Virus record (IMG/VR): IMGVR_UViG_3300030118_004476
Span: 1 to 22,189 of that record
From: a virus
Reading direction: 5' to 3' (one strand)
Length of the DNA: 22,189 nt
The position numbers and the translations under genes are program-made. Below, one piece after another: positions 3,343 through 10,812 of the stretch; the first letter of the stretch is position 1; each line of letters begins with the position of its first letter. A model generated the notes under the pieces. The model was not told the origin of the DNA and did no database searches. It saw only the letters and a list, made by a program, of their open reading frames with translations.

Positions 3343-3696
3343 TTAAATTTTAAATGTTTCCGCTAAGTTAGACCAAGCATCTGCTTTTTTCTCACCAACT
3401 ACTGGGTGTGGGTCTGATTCAGGAGCAGTAGCCGTAGGCTTTGCTTCCATCTTAGCTAATTTTTCCTCTAATGATTTTACCTCATCAATTAAGGCAAGAA
3501 TATTAGATTCTTTTTCTTCTAAAGATTCAGAAAGTTCTGTGTTTTCTTTATTAGACTTGTTAATCATGTCTTCTAAAGATGCCATTTTTTCTGTTACTTC
3601 TTCATTGTCAAGAACTTTAACCTCAGCAACATTTTCTACTTTATTTGAAAATAAGTCTGAAATAAAATTCTTTAACTCTTCAAAGTGCTTTTCCAT
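3343..3696 (-). CDS. Possible nested scaffolding protein from an internal start in the protease gene
   Basis: Met400 of the protease (ATG 3696..3694) begins MEKHFEELKNFISDLF, exactly where the protease domain ends and the coiled-coil tail begins. The bases just upstream, AATAAAAAATTATTAAAA, are as A/T-rich as the leaders of the capsid and tail-tube-like genes in the same operon. A separate in-frame 117-aa protein would be a scaffold in the manner of lambda Nu3, which starts inside the protease gene C. It would have heptad-like segments LEDMINKSNKENTELSESL and LALIDEVKSLEEKLAKMEAK and share the C-terminus ADAWSNLAETFKI. The nested product is inferred from the start context and domain boundary only. 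Confidence 0.4.
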   Translation of the reverse strand: MEKHFEELKNFISDLFSNKVENVAEVKVLDNEEVTEKMASLEDMINKSNKENTELSESLEEKESNILALIDEVKSLEEKLAKMEAKPTATAPESDPHPVVGEKKADAWSNLAETFKI

Positions 3697-4893
3697 TTTT
3701 AATAATTTTTTATTAGAGTTAAACATATCAACTACAATGCTTGTATTTTTGTAGTTAAGGTTATTCACATCAAACTTGGCTGCTAAAGCAATAGGTTCTT
3801 CTATACTGTTTATAAAACCAGCTTCAAGAGCTTCGTCTGCCGTAAACCAGGTTTCTTCATCCATCCAGTTACGGATTTCTGATTCGTCTTTCCCTGTTTT
3901 ACTTACATAAATATTTACAAGCCTATCACTCATTTTATCCATAAGGTCAGCAGCTTTTCTCATATCTTTTGCACCTCCTGTTTCTCCACCCCATACATTA
4001 TGAATCATAAACAAGCTATTTTGACTCATAGTAACCTCGTCAGCAGCTAAAGCTATTATAGAAGCAATAGATGCAGCGAGACCCTCTATCTTGGCGGTAA
4101 CTTTTTGAGGCATACGCTTTATAGCGTCATGTATAGCAAGACCATCTATAACTGAGCCGCCTGGGGAGTTAATTCTTAATAGAATTTCCTCTGTAGAGAT
4201 TTCTTTCATTTCTTCAATAAAGGTTTTGGAATCTACACCCCAATTCCCTATTTCATCATAAATAACAACTTCTGTGCTATTATTTATTGTATTTTTTATA
4301 TTATACCAGTTCATATCTGTTAAATTTTTAAGGTTAGAATGTTCACGAACCTCGCCATTCATATATGTAAACATTATAGTCATCTCAGTTCCGTCTTCAT
4401 CAACTTGAGTGACATATAGAACTCCATTTTCATGCAATTCTTTCATTTGTTCTTCTGTGAAGTCATACTTGTGGTCGTAATGAACTTCATTTTTCTTATC
4501 AATTTGCTCTAACTTTCTGATAGCCCACTCAACTCCCTCTGTTCCTCCCCAAGCATCCCACATTATGCCTCCGCAGCCCTCATCATAAGGAACATCTTTG
4601 TGTTGTTGATGTCTTTTAAAACTTGCCATACGAGCAATAGTTTCTCTACTTAGGGCCTCTCTTCTTGCTAACTGGCCAGCACGAGTCCAGCCCACATTAG
4701 TTCCGCAATCGCTTCCGTTTTCTTCTTTATATTTTATAGCCCTTTTTGCATTTGTTGTTGCCGCTTTAGGGTAATCATTGTATGTTTGATTGTAGCCTGA
4801 GTTAGCAGATTCACATTCGCTTAATGAATCATACTTACAGTCACCATAATCTCCCCATTTATATTTTCCGCTTTCGCATTTTTTACAAGGCAT
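3343..4893 (-). CDS. ClpP/S49-type prohead protease with extra N-terminal domains and scaffold-like C-terminus
   Basis: A 516-aa head-maturation protease that cleaves scaffold and capsid inside the prohead. Parts in order: a Cys motif (C3, C6, C19, C27; CKKC...GDCKYDSLSECE); a domain at about 41-132 containing GWTRAGQLARREALS, TIARMASFKRHQQ and GCGGIMWDAWGG; a linker to 205; then the ClpP fold at about 205-370. There INSPGGSVIDG (241-251) is the glycine-rich oxyanion segment, GLAAS supplies the probable nucleophile Ser275, FMIHN gives His298, and Asp345 in WMDEETWF is the candidate acid. After about 397 follows a charged coiled-coil scaffold-like tail ending in LAETFKI. The gene opens the head module and precedes the capsid gene. 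ClpP-type proteases with fused scaffold are known in phages; the 200-residue N-terminal extension is the odd part. The Zn or other role of the N-terminus is unknown. Confidence 0.85.
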   Translation of the reverse strand: MPCKKCESGKYKWGDYGDCKYDSLSECESANSGYNQTYNDYPKAATTNAKRAIKYKEENGSDCGTNVGWTRAGQLARREALSRETIARMASFKRHQQHKDVPYDEGCGGIMWDAWGGTEGVEWAIRKLEQIDKKNEVHYDHKYDFTEEQMKELHENGVLYVTQVDEDGTEMTIMFTYMNGEVREHSNLKNLTDMNWYNIKNTINNSTEVVIYDEIGNWGVDSKTFIEEMKEISTEEILLRINSPGGSVIDGLAIHDAIKRMPQKVTAKIEGLAASIASIIALAADEVTMSQNSLFMIHNVWGGETGGAKDMRKAADLMDKMSDRLVNIYVSKTGKDESEIRNWMDEETWFTADEALEAGFINSIEEPIALAAKFDVNNLNYKNTSIVVDMFNSNKKLLKMEKHFEELKNFISDLFSNKVENVAEVKVLDNEEVTEKMASLEDMINKSNKENTELSESLEEKESNILALIDEVKSLEEKLAKMEAKPTATAPESDPHPVVGEKKADAWSNLAETFKI

Positions 4894-4917
4894 ATCTTCT
4901 GTAAAGTTAAATATTTA

Positions 4918-4949
4918 CAAAAATAAAAACATAGTTAGGTAATGTTAGG
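4918..4949 (-). promoter_or_regulatory. Candidate head-operon promoter with CCTAAC direct repeat
   Basis: On the minus strand TATTTTTG (4925..4918) fits the TAnnTTTG -7 box and lies 24 bases before the protease ATG at 4893. No TTG is found where the -33 box is expected (near 4945). Instead CCTAAC occurs twice, at 4949..4944 and 4939..4934, in direct orientation with a 10-base period. A promoter lacking a -33 box but carrying a helically phased repeat suggests activation by a phage or host protein, as in middle or late phage promoters. The activator is not identified. Confidence 0.4.
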
Positions 4950-4995
4950 AAATTTTTGGAACAGAATTAGAAATTAAAAGATTTTTCTTAAAAAA

Positions 4996-5027
4996 TTTGG
5001 TTTATAAATTATATTGTTGTATGTTTG
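4996..5027 (+). promoter_or_regulatory. Strong Bacteroidota-type promoter for the replication module
   Basis: TTTG (4996-4999), 20 bases, then TATGTTTG (5020-5027) match the Bacteroidota -33/-7 consensus in sequence and spacing. Transcription would start a few bases beyond 5027, giving an A-rich leader of about 25 bases (ATTAACAAAAACATTAACAA) ending at ATG 5058. It probably drives the early plus-strand genes at least as far as the hairpin at 6811-6874. The -33, spacer length and -7 octamer equal those of the promoter at 1628-1659. Confidence 0.75.
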
Positions 5028-5057
5028 CTCAATATTATTAACAAAAACATTAACAAA

Positions 5058-5453
5058 ATGGAAAAAGAAACAAGAAAAGAAACGCTAAGAAGATTATTTA
5101 TTGAAAATAACTTAGTACAAGAAGATGTGTTTAAGCACAAATTCTACACAATTATTACAAGAGCAGGTATAGATAAGATACAAGCTGCAAACAAAATTGA
5201 CATCAAATATAATTTAATTTATAATTCTGATGATACAAAATGTGTTATAATTAAAGCCACTGGTAAACTTGGCGATAAAGTTATAGAAACATTTGGTGAG
5301 GCTGCACCTATGAATAACACAAATGGTTATCCTGTTGCTATGGCAGAAAAAAGAGCTATGAGTAGAGTTGTTCTAAAATTAGCTGGATTTTATGAGCATG
5401 GTGTGTTTTCAGAAGATGAAGCTGATGATTTTAAAAGACCAATGAATGGATAA
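5058..5453 (+). CDS. Probable phage recombination protein (ssDNA-annealing/ERF- or Rad52-like, tentative)
   Basis: A 131-aa product starting at ATG 5058 (MEKETRKETLRR). An upstream TTG at 5025 is inside the promoter -7 box, so it is not used. The body has KFYTIITRAGIDKIQ (31-45) and the C-terminal YPVAMAEKRAMSRVVLKLAG with EHGVFSEDEADDF. The A-x-AEKRA-x-x-R-x-x-L-x-LAG pattern followed by an acidic FSEDEADDF end is familiar from phage annealing or ERF/Rad52-type recombination proteins and from uncharacterised relatives. It is first in the replication module, where such recombinases often sit, and RusA occurs later in the module. It overlaps the next gene by 8 bases (ATGGATAA). The recombinase assignment is a family-pattern inference; the protein is short for a complete ERF or RecT. 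Confidence 0.6.
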   Translation: MEKETRKETLRRLFIENNLVQEDVFKHKFYTIITRAGIDKIQAANKIDIKYNLIYNSDDTKCVIIKATGKLGDKVIETFGEAAPMNNTNGYPVAMAEKRAMSRVVLKLAGFYEHGVFSEDEADDFKRPMNG

Positions 5454-5709
5454 AGACTGGATTGATGACATTATAGATGACGAGCCTGCTACTTGGTGGC
5501 AGTTAGAAAAAATAGAAAGACTGTGTCAAACATCTTCTACTGGCTCAAACTATATATGTCCATCAACTGGTGCGTATAAATATGACCCTAACACATTAAC
5601 TTATGAAGAAGCAAGTGCCATTATCTATAACCTTAAAGAAAACGACAACCCAAGAGATTGTAGAGACCAATTTTTACTCGTACTTAAACGAAACGGAGGA
5701 ACTATATGA
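5446..5709 (+). CDS. Small protein of unknown function next to the recombination gene
   Basis: An 87-aa acidic protein starting MDKDWIDDIIDD. It contains EPATWWQLEKIERLCQTS and, near the C-terminus, LTYEEASAIIYNLKEN. The combination AT-x-x-Q-x-x-x-IE-x-L ... LT-x-EEAS-x-II-x-L is a small helical module often found at the C-terminus of phage recombination and DNA-processing proteins. Here it is a free-standing gene whose start overlaps the stop of the recombination-like gene by 8 bases, so the two are probably translationally coupled and may work together. No catalytic motif is visible. Confidence 0.68.
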   Translation: MDKDWIDDIIDDEPATWWQLEKIERLCQTSSTGSNYICPSTGAYKYDPNTLTYEEASAIIYNLKENDNPRDCRDQFLLVLKRNGGTI

Positions 5710-5731
5710 AATTAAGCAAATCCTAAAGTTT

Positions 5732-6124
5732 ATGCGTGAAAACCTTATAAGGCAAGATAGAGCCTGTTGGTTTATCAGTTTAGATGATTATATATCTTTT
5801 TTTAAAATGATACCTGAAAAACTTTGGTCAACAAGACCTATATTCTATTTTAGAAAAGGCAAGTTTGATGGCCTTGGATTACTTGGTGAAAGAGTGCATG
5901 AGTATAATATATTATCAAAAACATTACAACTATACTTTGAAGACGGTGTAGGTATGAGATTAATTGATGTTTTAGATAATCGTGAGGAGTTTTTTAAAGA
6001 AATTAAAAGTCAAAAGGACAGATTATTAGATGCCTTGACTTATATAAAATTAAATGTAAACGAAAATGAACTTAGAAAAATATATGTCAAATCAAGGAAA
6101 ATTTGTGATGGGAGGTATTATTGA
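5732..6124 (+). CDS. Protein of unknown function in the replication module
   Basis: A 130-aa product if started at ATG 5732 (MRENLIRQDRACWFISLDDY). The frame is open back to ATG 5603, which would add 43 residues (through NFYSYLNETEELYEIKQI) but overlap the preceding gene by 107 bases. The short start is preferred because the overlap would be far larger than elsewhere in the module and the extension uses codons (ACG, TCG, AAC-GAA-ACG) that look out of place in this AT-rich DNA. The protein is mixed alpha/beta with RPIFYFRKGKFDGLGLLGERVHEY in the middle and a charged helical end. I do not recognise a family. Its stop overlaps the DnaA-like gene. Confidence 0.58.
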   Translation: MRENLIRQDRACWFISLDDYISFFKMIPEKLWSTRPIFYFRKGKFDGLGLLGERVHEYNILSKTLQLYFEDGVGMRLIDVLDNREEFFKEIKSQKDRLLDALTYIKLNVNENELRKIYVKSRKICDGRYY

Positions 6125-6515
6125 TAACAAAGTAGATATGCTGTTTGAGATAACAGAAACAATGACTGGTGTTACAAGAGACCAAGTATTATCAAATAGA
6201 AGAAACCAAGAAATAGCTATGGCAAGAAGCATTATAGGCTATATGTTACATAATGAGCTTGGTGTTACTGTTATGAACTCTGGTAAAATTATTAACAGAG
6301 ACCATTCAACAATAACTCATTATAGTAAAAGCTTTGACGCTAACTACAATTTTTACTCTAAATACAGAGAACTATACACAAACATTAGTGAGTTATTTTG
6401 GAGTAACTTTATTGATGTAGATAGTAAAGATATAGATTTAGAAATTAAAAAATTACAAAATCTTATTGATAAGCTTGAAGATAAAAAAACTAATTTATTA
6501 ACTAAAAACAATTAA
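6066..6515 (+). CDS. DnaA domain IV-like DNA-binding protein (replication initiation)
   Basis: A 149-aa protein (from ATG 6066) whose middle contains the DnaA C-terminal DNA-binding fold: EITETMTGVTRDQVLSNRRN, then IAMARSIIGYMLHNELGVTV, then IINRDHSTITHY. The last matches the DnaA signature (R-DHSTV-H) that contacts the major groove of DnaA boxes. Unlike DnaA it lacks the AAA+ ATPase domain, so it can bind but not melt DNA by itself. A C-terminal coiled segment (LEIKKLQNLIDKLEDKKTNLL) may oligomerise. It sits two bases before the SSB-like gene and upstream of loader-like and primase-helicase genes, fitting origin recognition or competition with host DnaA. Starts at 6084 or 6108 would reduce the 59-base overlap with the preceding gene and leave the domain intact. 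Confidence 0.8.
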   Translation: MNLEKYMSNQGKFVMGGIIDNKVDMLFEITETMTGVTRDQVLSNRRNQEIAMARSIIGYMLHNELGVTVMNSGKIINRDHSTITHYSKSFDANYNFYSKYRELYTNISELFWSNFIDVDSKDIDLEIKKLQNLIDKLEDKKTNLLTKNN

Positions 6516-6517
6516 TC

Positions 6518-6805
6518 ATGGAAGAAAAAAAGTATGTAAACGGTGTCTTAATTAAAGAAAAAGTTTTTGACAACGGTGGCTCACAATTAAAAATGAGCAT
6601 TAAGGTTAGTGATTTTATGTCAGAAATAAAAGACATAGAAGACAATGGTTGGGCTAATTTAATTATTAGTAAAAGACAATCACCATCAGATAAAGGTGTT
6701 ACGCATTATGTTAAGGTTGACACTTGGAAACCTGACCCTAATAAAGCACAGCAACCTAAAGTAGCTGTAGTAGATAACTCTAAAGATGATGATTTACCAT
6801 TTTAA
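6518..6805 (+). CDS. Small SSB-like protein with a DDDLPF C-terminal tip
   Basis: A 95-aa protein with a short beta-rich body (GVLIKEKVFDNGGSQLKMSI; WANLIISKRQSPS; THYVKVDTWKP) and a flexible acidic end KDDDLPF (89-95). The final residues are the same kind of C-terminal tip that bacterial SSB uses to recruit repair and replication partners; Bacteroidota SSBs often end DDLPF. The body is about 70 residues, shorter than the usual SSB OB-fold, so it may be a minimal phage ssDNA-binding protein or a decoy that carries only the tip. It follows the DnaA-like gene by two bases and is followed by the hairpin at 6811-6874. ssDNA binding is inferred; the tip is directly seen. Confidence 0.75.
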   Translation: MEEKKYVNGVLIKEKVFDNGGSQLKMSIKVSDFMSEIKDIEDNGWANLIISKRQSPSDKGVTHYVKVDTWKPDPNKAQQPKVAVVDNSKDDDLPF

Positions 6806-6810
6806 TTTAT

Positions 6811-6874
6811 AGGTTGGTGGGTTGTAGGCTATTTAATTATGTCTCTCCGTAGTTTACGGCCCACCCTCCTTTTT
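6811..6874 (+). terminator. Long hairpin with T-tract: terminator or attenuator
   Basis: GGTGGGTTGTAGGCT (6816-6830) pairs through 15 consecutive positions with AGTTTACGGCCCACC (6851-6865), counting four G-U pairs, around a 20-base loop. AGG (6811-6813) with CCT (6868-6870) extends the stem after a 2x2 mismatch, and TTTTT (6870-6874) follows. A competing small hairpin, CCGTA-GTT-TACGG (6847-6859), uses part of the same strand. It lies in the only sizeable gap of the replication module, between the SSB-like gene and the next start at 6891, whose leader is AACAAAACAAAACAAA. Confidence 0.55.
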
Positions 6875-6890
6875 AACAAAACAAAACAAA

Positions 6891-7490
6891 ATGAAAAGAA
6901 AATTTAAAGGTATATGGATTCCTGCTGATGTATGGGAATCTAAAGATTTAACTTTGCAAGAAAAAGTCTTTCTTGTAGAAATTGATTCACTTAATAATGA
7001 TAAAGGTTGTTTTGCAAACAATAATTATTTTGCAAAATTTTTTGGCCTATCAACTACAAGGGTTTCTTTAGTAATTAACAGTCTTATAAAAAAGGGCTTT
7101 GTAACATCAAGTATCTTACAATCAGAGGGTAACAAACGAATATTAAAGACCTATTTAACAAAAGTTAAAAACCCTTTGCCACAAAAGTTAAAACATAATA
7201 ATACAGTTAGTAAAACAAATAATAAAGAAAAAGAAGAACTATTTGACATTTTTTGGAAACTATACGATAAACCAGTTTCTAAAAAACCAGCTAAAGAAAA
7301 GTTTATTAGATTATCTTTAGATAACTGTAAGAAATGTATAGAAGTTGCCCCTATATATGTTCAAAGCACTCCTGACAGAAAGTTTAGGAAACACGCTGTA
7401 ACCTGGCTGAATCAGGAGTGTTTTGATGATGATTATACTGTAAATAATGGACAGATAAATTCTGGTAAATTAAAAGGTATGATATTATGA
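6891..7490 (+). CDS. Winged-helix replication protein (helicase loader/replisome organiser-like)
   Basis: A 199-aa protein. Residues about 9-76 form a winged helix-turn-helix: WIPADVWESKDLTLQEKVFL, then NNNYFAKFFGLSTTRVSLVI as the HTH and IKKGFVTSS as the wing. A Lys/Asn-rich linker (about 90-112) leads to a C-terminal domain with FDIFWKLYDKPVSKKPAKEK and FRKHAVTWLNQECFDDDY, the F-W-x-x-Y...K-x-A-x-x-x...H-A-x-x-WLN pattern of phage replication proteins that bridge origin and helicase. It starts with an A-rich leader after the 6811-6874 hairpin and overlaps the primase-helicase gene by ATGA at 7487, so the two are coupled. Its likely job is to bind DNA and help load the helicase; direct loader activity is inferred from context. 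Confidence 0.75.
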   Translation: MKRKFKGIWIPADVWESKDLTLQEKVFLVEIDSLNNDKGCFANNNYFAKFFGLSTTRVSLVINSLIKKGFVTSSILQSEGNKRILKTYLTKVKNPLPQKLKHNNTVSKTNNKEKEELFDIFWKLYDKPVSKKPAKEKFIRLSLDNCKKCIEVAPIYVQSTPDRKFRKHAVTWLNQECFDDDYTVNNGQINSGKLKGMIL

Positions 7491-9181
7491 CATTTAGAGA
7501 TTATGGCATAATAATAAATAAAAACAAAGGACAGGTTAAAACAAAATGTCCAAAATGTTCACATGAACGAAGAAAAAAATCAGAACCATGTTTGTCTGTT
7601 AACATAGACGAGGGTATATGGAATTGTCATAACTGCGGTTGGAAAGGTTCTTTAAATAAAGATAAATATATGAGAGAGATACAATATGTAAGGCCAAAGA
7701 TAAAACCAAAAATATCTAAATATTCAGATAATGTTTTGAATTGGTTTATGCTTAGAGGCATAACAGAAAAAACTTTAATAGCTAATAAAATAAGCGAGGG
7801 TATAGAATATATGCCACAATTAGGTAAAGAGACATCTACCATACAGTTTAATTATTATAAAGACAATGAACTTATCAATGTTAAGTATAGAGATGCAAGA
7901 AAAAACTTTAAACTTGTAAAAGATGCAGAAAAAATACTATACGGACTTGATGATATAAAAGGTTGTGATGAGGTTATTATTGTTGAGGGTGAAATAGACA
8001 AGTTATCTTTTTATGAAATAGGTTTTAAAAATTGTGTATCTGTACCTAATGGTGCTTCTAATATGAAGCTTGAATATATAAAAGATTTCCCTGATGATTT
8101 AAAAAAAGTTTATATAGCAACAGATACAGATGAGCCAGGTAGAAAATTAGCAGAAGAATTATCAAGAAGAATAGGAAGAGATATTTGTTATAGAGTAGAT
8201 TTTAAAGATTGCAAGGATGCTAACGAATATCTATTAAAGTATAATTCTCAGGATTTAAGAGATAGAATTAGTAAAGCAAAAGCATATCCTTTAGAGGGTG
8301 TTATAAGTTTAGATAGTTTTGATTTAGATATAGACGATTTATATAAAAATGGTATGTCAAGTGGTGATAAGGTAAATCATGCTACTCTTGACAGATTATT
8401 TAGCTTTAAAACATCACAACTAACAGTTATAACAGGTGTGCCTACACATGGTAAAAGTAATTGGCTTGAACATATATGTATGAGATTATCTTGTATGCAC
8501 AACTGGAGTTTTGGTGTGTTTTCTCCTGAACACTACCCTCTACAATTACATTTTTCTGTATTAGCAGAAAAGTTTACTGGTAAAACATTTAGAGAAAAAA
8601 CTATATATGATAGAATGAGTAGAGGTGATTTAGAGTTTGCAAAAAAATTTATTTCTAAAAGGTATCATTGGATAAGGCCTGATGGTGATGTTTTTACTAT
8701 AGACTCTATACTTTCTGCTGCCGCAGGACTTGTAAAAAGATATGGTATAAAAGGTTTAATTATTGACCCATACAATAAAATACACGCAAATATTGGTTCT
8801 CAATCAGAAACACAATACATAAATGATTTTTTGACAAAGCTTACAATATTTAAACAAAAATATGATATACATATATTTTTAGTTGCACACCCAAGAAAAA
8901 TGCAAAAAAAAGATAATGGTTTGTATGATGTGCCAACACTTTATGATATAGCTGGTTCTGCAAATTTTTATAATCAGGTAGATAATGGTATAACAGTTTA
9001 TAGAGATTTTCAAACAGGCCATAGTCATGTTTATGTCCAAAAAGTAAAATTTAGACATATTGGTGAAATTGGTGAAGCTGTATTTAATTATAATTTACAA
9101 AATGGCAGGTATTATGAAATTGCAGAAAGCCCTGACAATGAGCCTTACAAAAATGAAAACACACAGTTGAACTTAATTTAA
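7487..9181 (+). CDS. Primase-helicase, T7 gp4-like (Zn finger, TOPRIM, RecA-like helicase)
   Basis: A 564-aa bifunctional replication protein that synthesises primers and unwinds the fork. The N-terminal zinc finger has C21-x-x-C24 and C47HNC50GW. The TOPRIM primase fold has VIIVEGEIDKLSFY (163-176, Glu167) and VYIATDTDEPGR (208-219, Asp213 and Asp215). The RecA-like helicase has Walker A GVPTHGKS (317-324, Lys323), Walker B KGLIIDPYN (422-430, Asp427) and the FLVAHPRK segment (464-471) typical of DnaB/T7 gp4 motif H3. Length agrees with T7 gp4. It overlaps the winged-helix gene by 4 bases. No DNA polymerase is seen in the window, so it presumably feeds a host polymerase or one encoded elsewhere. 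Confidence 0.92.
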   Translation: MTFRDYGIIINKNKGQVKTKCPKCSHERRKKSEPCLSVNIDEGIWNCHNCGWKGSLNKDKYMREIQYVRPKIKPKISKYSDNVLNWFMLRGITEKTLIANKISEGIEYMPQLGKETSTIQFNYYKDNELINVKYRDARKNFKLVKDAEKILYGLDDIKGCDEVIIVEGEIDKLSFYEIGFKNCVSVPNGASNMKLEYIKDFPDDLKKVYIATDTDEPGRKLAEELSRRIGRDICYRVDFKDCKDANEYLLKYNSQDLRDRISKAKAYPLEGVISLDSFDLDIDDLYKNGMSSGDKVNHATLDRLFSFKTSQLTVITGVPTHGKSNWLEHICMRLSCMHNWSFGVFSPEHYPLQLHFSVLAEKFTGKTFREKTIYDRMSRGDLEFAKKFISKRYHWIRPDGDVFTIDSILSAAAGLVKRYGIKGLIIDPYNKIHANIGSQSETQYINDFLTKLTIFKQKYDIHIFLVAHPRKMQKKDNGLYDVPTLYDIAGSANFYNQVDNGITVYRDFQTGHSHVYVQKVKFRHIGEIGEAVFNYNLQNGRYYEIAESPDNEPYKNENTQLNLI

Positions 9182-9196
9182 TAATTTATATATTTG
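9167..9196 (+). promoter_or_regulatory. Promoter giving a near-leaderless transcript of the 9201 gene
   Basis: TTG (9167-9169), 19 bases, then TATATTTG (9189-9196) match the Bacteroidota promoter consensus. The -7 box ends only 4 bases before ATG 9201, so the transcript would start at or close to the start codon. The -33 box overlaps the end of the primase-helicase gene. The block TATATTTGCATTATG is repeated with one change in the minus-strand promoter at 10817-10847. Confidence 0.6.
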
Positions 9197-9200
9197 CATT

Positions 9201-9617
9201 ATGATAACTTTATTTGAAGATATTACATACGAACTGACAGAATATGAAACAGACACACTATTACCTATTGTTGTTAAAGGTTTAGAAAGAAAATATGGTA
9301 AACAAAATGCTATAACAAATAAGAAAATTTGTGAAGCACTAAAAAACAAAGGCTATAAAATAACTGAACCAAGACTTAGAAAAATTATACATCATATAAG
9401 GGTTGAACAGCTTATAGTTGGTTTATGTTGTAATAGTAAAGGTTACTATGTGACAGATAGTATTGAGGAGCTTGGCAGATATGTTGAAAGTCTTGCACAG
9501 AGAATAAGAAGTCAACAATCTATATATAAAAGTATGAAGCTTTGCATGGATAAGATAAAATTATTAGATAAAAAATTAGGCCTTGATGATAAAATAAATT
9601 GGTCTGTAAAACATTAA
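9201..9617 (+). CDS. Small winged-helix-like protein of unknown function
   Basis: A 138-aa protein. Residues about 20-80 look like a winged helix: TLLPIVVKGLERKYGKQNAI, KKICEALKNKGYKITEPRLR, then KIIHHIRVEQLIVGL and a hairpin CCNSKGYYVTDS. A C-terminal helical part (SLAQRIRSQQSIYKSMKLCM) is likely coiled. Similar small proteins occur next to replication genes in Bacteroidota phages, but I cannot name the family. It has its own near-leaderless promoter at 9167-9196, separating it from the primase-helicase transcript, and is followed by the DUF3310 and RusA genes. A DNA-binding or regulatory role is plausible from the fold; no partner can be read from the sequence. Confidence 0.7.
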   Translation: MITLFEDITYELTEYETDTLLPIVVKGLERKYGKQNAITNKKICEALKNKGYKITEPRLRKIIHHIRVEQLIVGLCCNSKGYYVTDSIEELGRYVESLAQRIRSQQSIYKSMKLCMDKIKLLDKKLGLDDKINWSVKH

Positions 9618-9620
9618 AAT

Positions 9621-9953
9621 ATGGAACATAGCGAATATTATTATGATTATACCAGGAATTGTACTTGTAATGGTAACTGTAAATGTGGTAAGGTAGAAAA
9701 ACAAGATTGTAGAGTACCGAGATATTATGTTGGTAAAAATGGTTATGAAGCGAGAAAGGTCTGTGACAACTTTAATCTACCTTATCACTTAGGAACTGCA
9801 ACGACTTATATTTTGCGTGCATACCATAAACATGACACACCCATTGATTGTTTGCGTAAAGCAATAGCACACTTAGAATTTGAAATTGAAAAATACGAAG
9901 ATAATAGAACTGAAAATAGCTGCTGTTCCAAAACCAAGAATGACCAGAGCTGA
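9621..9953 (+). CDS. DUF3310 family protein with Cys-rich N-terminus
   Basis: A 110-aa protein. The core (about 33-92) matches the DUF3310 pattern of small phage proteins, often found with DNA metabolism genes: RVPRYYVGKNGYEARKVCDN, YHLGTATTYILRAYHKHDTP and LRKAIAHLEFEIEKY. Function of this family is not established. The N-terminus adds a Cys cluster (C14, C16, C20, C22, C30; NCTCNGNCKCGK) that could bind a metal and is not part of the usual DUF3310 core. The 3' end (DNRTENSCCSKTK) overlaps the RusA frame by 74 bases. It starts 3 bases after the previous stop and is probably co-transcribed from the 9167-9196 promoter. Confidence 0.75.
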   Translation: MEHSEYYYDYTRNCTCNGNCKCGKVEKQDCRVPRYYVGKNGYEARKVCDNFNLPYHLGTATTYILRAYHKHDTPIDCLRKAIAHLEFEIEKYEDNRTENSCCSKTKNDQS

Positions 9954-10287
9954 CGCTTGGAAAAAAAGACCTTGCGTTGTAAATTATTGGGCTTACAAAG
10001 ATGAGCTTAGATTACTTATGTCTAAAAATGGTTTAGATATTGATAAAGAAATATATGCAGAGTTCTATATACCAATGCCTAAATCATGGAGTAAAAAGAA
10101 ACAAAATCTGTTCGTTGGCAAGGAGCATGAAAAGAGGCCAGACATAGACAATCTTGTAAAAGGTGTTATGGATGCCTTGTTTAAAGAAGACTCCCATGTT
10201 CATACTATATATGCTAAAAAGTTTTGGTCTAAAGAGGCTAAAATAGTATTTATACCTAAACATCTATTGTGCGAATATTTGACTTAA
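9880..10287 (+). CDS. rusA: RusA-type Holliday junction resolvase
   Basis: A 135-aa RusA endonuclease that resolves recombination and replication junctions. Visible features are the N-terminal strand IIELKIAAVPKPRMTR, the metal-binding RPDIDNLVKGVMDALF (Asp88 and Asp90) and the following KEDSHV (Asp104), matching the three acidic residues of RusA, then IYAKKFWSKEAK. No ATG lies upstream of the N-terminal strand; TTG at 9880 or 9886 is the only suitable initiator, giving a 74-base overlap with the DUF3310 gene in another frame. It ends 32 bases inside the oppositely oriented HTH gene. The family call is firm; the exact start is not. Confidence 0.87.
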   Translation: MKLKNTKIIELKIAAVPKPRMTRADAWKKRPCVVNYWAYKDELRLLMSKNGLDIDKEIYAEFYIPMPKSWSKKKQNLFVGKEHEKRPDIDNLVKGVMDALFKEDSHVHTIYAKKFWSKEAKIVFIPKHLLCEYLT

Positions 10288-10579
10288 CATCAAATTTCTT
10301 TCTTTGTTTATATACTATATTTTTAGCTTGTTTTTCTGAAATACCATACTTAACAGAAAGGTCAATAAAAGTGTTACCCACATGACCTTTATTAGACACT
10401 AAATATTTATCAAAGTCTAATATCATCATGTAGTTCCTTAATGTTTTAGGGGGTATTAAGCCTTGAGCAGACAGTTGATATATAACATCACCAAGAGCAA
10501 AAGTGTCTCCAAATCTTTTACATAGTGACTTGTATAGCGTGTCACGAAACTCAAAAACTATACTTCTTTTATTAGCCAT
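10256..10579 (-). CDS. Small helix-turn-helix protein
   Basis: A 107-aa basic protein. ATG 10579 shares a base with the upstream stop (TAATG), so it is translated by termination-reinitiation after the Cys-rich gene; a TTG two codons earlier is less likely. The N-terminal half (FRDTLYKSLCKRFGDTFALG) is helical. The C-terminal region FIDLSVKYGISEKQAKNIVY, followed by KQRKKF, is a good helix-turn-helix, similar in shape to the recognition region of Mor-type activators or small terminase subunits. A transcription activator for late genes or a DNA-packaging role is possible, but neither can be settled from the sequence. The last 32 bases overlap rusA tail to tail. Confidence 0.7.
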   Translation of the reverse strand: MANKRSIVFEFRDTLYKSLCKRFGDTFALGDVIYQLSAQGLIPPKTLRNYMMILDFDKYLVSNKGHVGNTFIDLSVKYGISEKQAKNIVYKQRKKFDVKSNIRTIDV

Positions 10580-10812
10580 TACCAAAGACCTTTAGGACAC
10601 TCTATATAGAACTCATCCATTCTTGTTTTTATATTTAAAAAGCAACCGCAAGAAGCACACTTCTCTAAAGCTTTTATTCCAAACGGCTTTCTGTATGAAC
10701 CACAAGTATTTGAACGACATATAGACATTCTCTTATTAAAGAGTTTTTCTGAGGATTTTTTTACTCCTTTTCCTACAAAGTAATCCCAAAAAATATAAAT
10801 TAATGTTTTCAT
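10579..10812 (-). CDS. Small Cys-rich (zinc-ribbon-like) protein
   Basis: A 77-aa protein with Cys at 32, 37, 52, 55, 57 and 72. KCASCGCFLNIKTRMDEFYI followed by ECPKGLW is the familiar C-terminal signature of small phage proteins found after tail genes in Bacteroidota phages (CGCF-x-x-x-KTR...CP-x-G-x-W). Paired cysteines imply a zinc ribbon. The N-terminus MKTLIYIFWDYF is hydrophobic and might be membrane-associated. It starts 4 bases after a promoter -7 box and is coupled to the next gene by TAATG. The function of this family is unknown to me. Confidence 0.72.
   Translation of the reverse strand: MKTLIYIFWDYFVGKGVKKSSEKLFNKRMSICRSNTCGSYRKPFGIKALEKCASCGCFLNIKTRMDEFYIECPKGLW

Follow-up and report, generated by a model that had tools for sequence, protein, structure and literature searches.

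How does a phage whose replication and head genes are read in opposite directions from one short gap separate the expression of the two sets? The question is raised by a virus record from IMG/VR, IMGVR_UViG_3300030118_004476, all 22,189 bases of which were analysed and are referred to here as the window. The gap was located correctly in the original prediction, as reading of the sequence confirmed, and it is bounded by the first genes of two blocks:

4894-5057: divergent gap of 164 bases, with replication genes on one side and head genes on the other
3343..4893, minus strand: gene for the head maturation protease, with which the head block begins (PF00574, 5.5e-35; PHROG head maturation protease, 8.8e-71)
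5058..5453, plus strand: first gene of the early/replication block, ATG at 5058, 69-91% identity in 8 long relatives

The head block (portal, MCP and protease) and the window's tail block lie on the minus strand, and the replication block, running from 5058 to 10287 with genes for RusA, a primase-helicase, a DnaA-domain protein and a replication initiator, lies on the plus strand. Nearly all structural genes of eight long relatives (37-42 kb) share one strand, with the early block opposite. Starting at the divergent gap, their late strand carries the head, terminase and tail genes and, last, a homologue of gene 10256, described below. The ‘head’ and ‘tail’ blocks of the window are thus two parts of one late strand, split by the contig ends. 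The layout around the gap is preserved to the exact base in dozens of related phages and, as part of the single explanation developed below, the gap is probably the early/late switch of an uncultured phage group. An N-terminal extension beginning MPCKKC... or MAKTYNDYPQ... was also seen in the protease of the window (3343-4893) and its relatives; it is missing in many relatives, where translation begins at MNWYN or MNWYS.

The phage probably has a flavobacterial host, an assignment made from the promoter type and the nearest cultured TerL, that of Flavobacterium phage 11b (52.6%). No phage record matches gene 10256 or its neighbour 10579, the sole MCP match among cultured phages is 23% identical, and no homologue of 10256 was found in the 11b genome. 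We found no described late promoter of such phages in the open-access literature, nor did the open literature yield an account of late-gene control in Bacteroidota phages.

The promoter reading into the replication genes can be read directly in the sequence:

4996..5027, plus strand: early promoter TTTG-N20-TATGTTTG, directed towards the replication genes
4996-4999 and 5020-5027, plus strand: its TTTG and TATGTTTG elements, separated by N20

It had been predicted to be a full consensus, and positions 4996-5027 do match the Bacteroidota housekeeping pattern TTTG-N19-21-TAnnTTTG. The match alone carries little weight, as the pattern is not rare: it occurs three times in the window, and 13 of 100 shuffled sequences reach three. 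Support for the early motif comes instead from its conserved place and spacing, the TTTG-N20-TTAyATTG geometry being present in all 26 distinct sequences of clade B, the more distant of the two clades of relatives.

The opposite strand carries a different arrangement:

4918..4925, minus strand: late promoter P1, -7 box TATTTTTG, predicted transcription start near 4913
4926..4947, minus strand: spacer of 22 nt, fixed in length and variable in sequence, holding the second CCTAAC (4939..4934)
4948..4961, minus strand: proximal unit TTCCAAAAATTTCC (TTCC-N6-TTCC, 14 bp), spanning -48 to -35 and centred near -41.5, putative activator site
4969..4982, minus strand: weaker distal copy ATCTTTTAATTTCT, centred near -62.5, 21 bp further upstream than the proximal unit

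The unit centres follow from placing the -7 box at -12 to -5, with the start 4-5 nt downstream of it, the offset known from Flavobacterium johnsoniae (PMC6847099). As predicted, the sequence has a -7 box at 4925..4918 and no TTG at the -33 distance. This lack is general: a TTG 18-22 nt before the box was found in 0/43 late promoters, against about 15% of background positions. Since the -33 element is barely visible at most F. johnsoniae promoters (PMC6847099), its absence is weak evidence alone and counts only together with the conserved unit, which on the late strand is separated from the -7 box downstream of it by exactly 22 nt. The late promoter thus combines a -7 box, no -33 box and a conserved site at a fixed upstream distance. 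The unit lies between the divergent promoters and upstream of both start sites, hence outside both transcripts, which argues for a role at the DNA level.

Protease and MCP searches gave 28 and 80 loci, respectively, for alignment on the late strand. The aligned relatives share AATTTCC-type repeats in a fixed register, not CCTAAC. In clade A, to which the window belongs, the core is TGTGCAAtAAATTTCC, but TGTTCCAAAAATTTCC in the window and L009; exactly 22 nt and the -7 box (TATAATTG, TATTATTG or TATTTTTG) follow, and a second copy of the unit lies 21 bp upstream of the core. This distal copy is conserved in the clade, as ATTCCATAAATTTCC in L007 and in similar form in L002, L006, L008 and L010; none was seen in most clade B members. 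The clade B arrangement is a core TTTATTCCAnnAAnTTCC, 22 nt and TTATATTG, found in 17/17 of the first set; the core common to both clades is TTCC-N6-TTCC. In the subgroup of L011 and L016 the proximal unit has diverged and the gap is 22-23 nt. Identity across the spacer is 0.44 in the window's clade and 0.59 in clade B, compared with 0.78 and 0.92 across the unit.

A 67-bp matrix of the site scored 15-72 in the relatives and at most 7.6 in 2 Mb of simulated sequence. Training members are among the relatives scored, and two tests on held-out sequences were added for this reason. Trained on clade B alone, a model put the window site at the top of 44,268 positions, though only narrowly (6.7 vs 6.3), and one built from clade A minus the window and its closest relative also placed it first (23.1 vs 9.9). 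The cross-clade model was uneven, the true site ranking from 1 to 136 in other clade A genomes. Scored for the unit alone, the window site reached 25.0; the next-best place had 12.2, and the highest value in 30 second-order shuffles was 18.1. The best unit scores in the genome of phage 11b (16.9-18.2) fell in the range of shuffled controls and lay mostly inside genes.

Scans of 2.9 million IMG/VR contigs gave the location of the element more widely. The exact pattern TTTATTCCANNAANTTCC-N22-TTATATTG occurred in 47 contigs, every match lying 4-15 nt before the protease ATG, and it had no match, as an exact pattern including its -7 box, in 84,980 prokaryote genomes. When the gap was left open (10-34), 48 matches were obtained, of which 47 had a gap of 22 and stood before the head-protease gene; in the remaining one (L165) it was 12. 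The search for a variant unit, TTTGTTCCANAAANTTC, at any gap of 8-28 returned 43 matches, all equal to a 12-nt gap after the last C. All 43 lie before the gene that follows TerL, 12 nt from a -7 box, and L165 belongs with these. The spacing of the second site type is thus shorter by exactly 10 bp, and its centre is at -31.5. The hits are related sequences, with only 27 and 21 distinct ones underlying 47 and 44 hits, and the exact spacing is for that reason partly inherited. Among the distinct hits spacer identity is 0.59 and 0.63 and unit identity 0.92 and 0.95, the latter being partly fixed by the search pattern.

A third, weaker kind of late site probably lies upstream of terS. In clade A it consists of TTGTGTAATATATTtCC followed by TTG and about N20 to the box. 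The clade B form is AGTTCC-N22-TTATATTG, preceded by a decayed copy, TTTATTACACTAACTGCA. Both this site and the post-TerL one were seen in relatives, as they fall beyond the ends of the window. In the window's clade, TTATnCACA DnaA boxes immediately adjoin the unit-like element before terS (G001 35896, L113; G002 12799, L114) and may mark an origin or a site for a DnaA protein. Most long relatives also have a unit-like and box-like sequence opposite the late strand, just before the gene following terS (G010 1163, G013 1249, G012 33040, G008 19257, G002 13488 and G001 36586), which would read antisense.

The position of the start codon is a separate observation. In many clade B head promoters (L131-L164) the ATG begins 3-5 nt past the -7 box, as it does at the post-TerL promoter (L166-L208) and before the 10579 homologues. 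This predicts leaderless mRNAs, which are a minority in F. johnsoniae (PMC6847099).

Taken as a whole, the best explanation is probably a class of late promoters at which host RNA polymerase works together with a phage activator, bound near -41.5 or, at the second site type, -31.5. The early promoter would be an ordinary Bacteroidota TTTG-N20-TAnnTTTG promoter, read at once by host RNA polymerase. The late promoter would keep the -7 box, with the TTCC-N6-TTCC unit in the place of the -33 element; a phage protein would bind the unit and recruit host polymerase to the head genes, in the manner of class II activators. Before the post-TerL gene, the variant unit would act from one helical turn nearer (gap 12, about -31.5) and, given the unit's presence there, that block would also be turned on by the same protein. 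A related element is found before terS as well.

Three genes of the window bear on the identity of the activator:

10256..10576, minus strand: candidate late activator gene, 106 residues, all-helical, C-terminal helix-turn-helix (HTH)
10579..10812, minus strand: Cys-rich protein of 77 residues, always adjoining 10256, in 8/8 long relatives
6066..6515, plus strand: DnaA domain IV HTH protein (PF08299, 5.5e-10), early, alternative regulator

On this evidence the product of 10256 is the likeliest candidate, if a tentative one. The gene is present in 18/18 contigs over 20 kb, ends the late strand in all eight long relatives, with 10579 next to it, and has no match among cultured phages or in genome contigs. 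Its AlphaFold2 model is confident (pLDDT 87.6), and the C-terminal HTH bears a weak resemblance to Mu C and Mor, among other proteins. Against the Mor/C family (PF08765) the best score was 14.8 bits for a cut-off of 24.9, with 0/18 contigs over it, and 6/19 members matched the family weakly (best E 0.0071). Foldseek placed Mu C (9l0x) third and Mor (1rr7) seventh, but with E above 1, and VIA-align of the HTH only gave Z scores of 5.7 for C and 4.8 for Mor, below TnpE (7.8) and HetR (6.2). The matches to TnpE, HetR and homeodomains were taken as shared HTH geometry only.

The place of 10256 at the end of the late strand would be odd for a late activator unless a -7 box of its own works. In 13/18 sequences such a box, TAnnTTTG or TAnnTTTA, begins 11-12 nt ahead of the 10579 ATG; it has no unit, and the promoter is usually without a -33 TTG. 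The 10256/10579 pair may thus be transcribed without the late unit. The 10579 product has no Pfam family above cut-off and belongs to PHROG 13558, of unknown function. Gene 9201, found in only 5/18 contigs, was rejected as the regulator. A phage sigma factor system was also rejected, neither sigma-70 region 2 (PF04542, 18 contigs) nor region 4 (PF04545, 9 contigs) being detected by searches that were positive in controls. The single-subunit RNA polymerase domain PF00940 had no match in 9 contigs, and none in the control genomes either.

A more specific proposal, possible though somewhat doubtful, is that one new HTH activator of the 10256 family would work with a Bacteroidota-type RNA polymerase from two fixed positions, -41.5 and -31.5, separated by a helical turn, and that in many members transcription would begin at the start codon or just beside it.

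The best surviving alternative, an unlikely one, is that the activator binding the unit is instead the early DnaA-domain-IV protein of gene 6066, an arrangement that would tie late transcription to replication. This gene belongs to the early block and occurs in 18/18 contigs (11 over cut-off), the terS region of the window's clade has TTATnCACA boxes beside the unit, and the clade B units include TTATTCCAC, which comes near to a DnaA box. However, the window's own unit has no DnaA-like box, and the protein diverges among relatives (24-68% identity) whereas the unit is nearly fixed. Moreover, a DnaA-like protein (gp034) is annotated in the flavobacterial Cellulophaga phage phi10:1, where no promoter-like unit was found in the part of the genome scanned. 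A DnaA box as universal core was rejected, as it misfits the window's unit.

Somewhat less likely again, the unit could be the operator of a phage repressor that holds the late promoters off until replication. At both sites it overlaps or adjoins the -33 region, and it is also close to the early -33 box, so that a bound protein could block either promoter, and promoters without a -33 element are normal in the phylum (PMC6847099). Yet a repressor site needs no single register, and the gap was 22 or 12 only in 91 matches. The TTG missing at -33 from all 43 late promoters, although about 15% of background positions have one, also counts against a repressor.

It is improbable that the protein recognising the unit is a host transcription factor. 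In favour of this reading, host factors bound near -41.5 are common. Against it stands the lack of an exact match to the full pattern in 84,980 bacterial and archaeal genomes, a comparison that covers the pattern with its own -7 box and leaves room for host sites with another -7 box.

The activator element named in the original prediction was the CCTAAC pair, and although its copies do lie at 4949..4944 and 4939..4934, 10 bp apart, as the one CCTAAC-N4-CCTAAC in the window against 0.01 expected by chance (shuffles), and are in phase with the TTCC half-sites, to which they may add an extra half-site in this phage, their role as the activator site is very improbable, given that two copies occur in only one of 43 late regions, that of the window, and the second lies in the variable spacer. 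CCTAAC-N3-5-CCTAAC was absent from every protease relative and was rejected as a conserved element. The CC of the first copy is the end of the conserved unit TTCCAAAAATTTCC (4961..4948), which had gone undescribed; looked for in relatives and at the other late operon, the CCTAAC version of the claim fails and the overlapping TTCC-N6-TTCC passes. The wider idea of a constitutive early promoter set against an activator-type late one fits the data (26/26 early geometries, 0/43 late promoters with a -33 TTG, and a unit at invariant distance), and only the element was wrongly named.

What emerges is a precise code for the promoters of structural genes in an uncultured group of phages, together with a short list of candidate regulators. 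It turns late-gene switching with the unusual Bacteroidota polymerase into a question that can be tested with reporters, and the code identifies the group's head and post-TerL operons in metagenomic contigs by DNA pattern alone.

Several known systems resemble parts of this arrangement. The Pho box consists of direct repeats about one helical turn apart, and CRP as a class II activator is centred at -41.5, features that the unit described here shares. These are bacterial regulators with other sequences, however, and no such regulator was identified in these phages. In T4 middle promoters a box for a phage activator also replaces the -35 element, and MotA binds close to -31.5, where the 12-nt-gap site is centred; the head-promoter site differs in lying one turn further upstream, and the sequences are unrelated. 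The likeness to Mu Pm/Mor and the C late promoters lies in a -10 box without a -35, an activator site, here a proposed one, in place of the latter and a small phage HTH activator, here a candidate. The Mor element is centred at -43.5 (PMC4390567), compared with about -41.5 here. It is a 16-bp element with two 5-bp inverted repeats, whereas the conserved site here, which also replaces the -35 element, proved on a dyad-symmetry test to be a direct repeat, TTCC-N6-TTCC. In addition, one site type here sits a helical turn nearer, the polymerase would be of Bacteroidota type, and 10256 falls outside the Mor family by cut-off. A further comparison is with the Bacteroidota housekeeping promoters (TTTG / TAnnTTTG, sigma-ABfr; PMC6847099), which the early promoter fits and of whose -7 box the late one is a close variant. 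The late promoter differs from them in having no -33 element and a conserved unit at a fixed distance.
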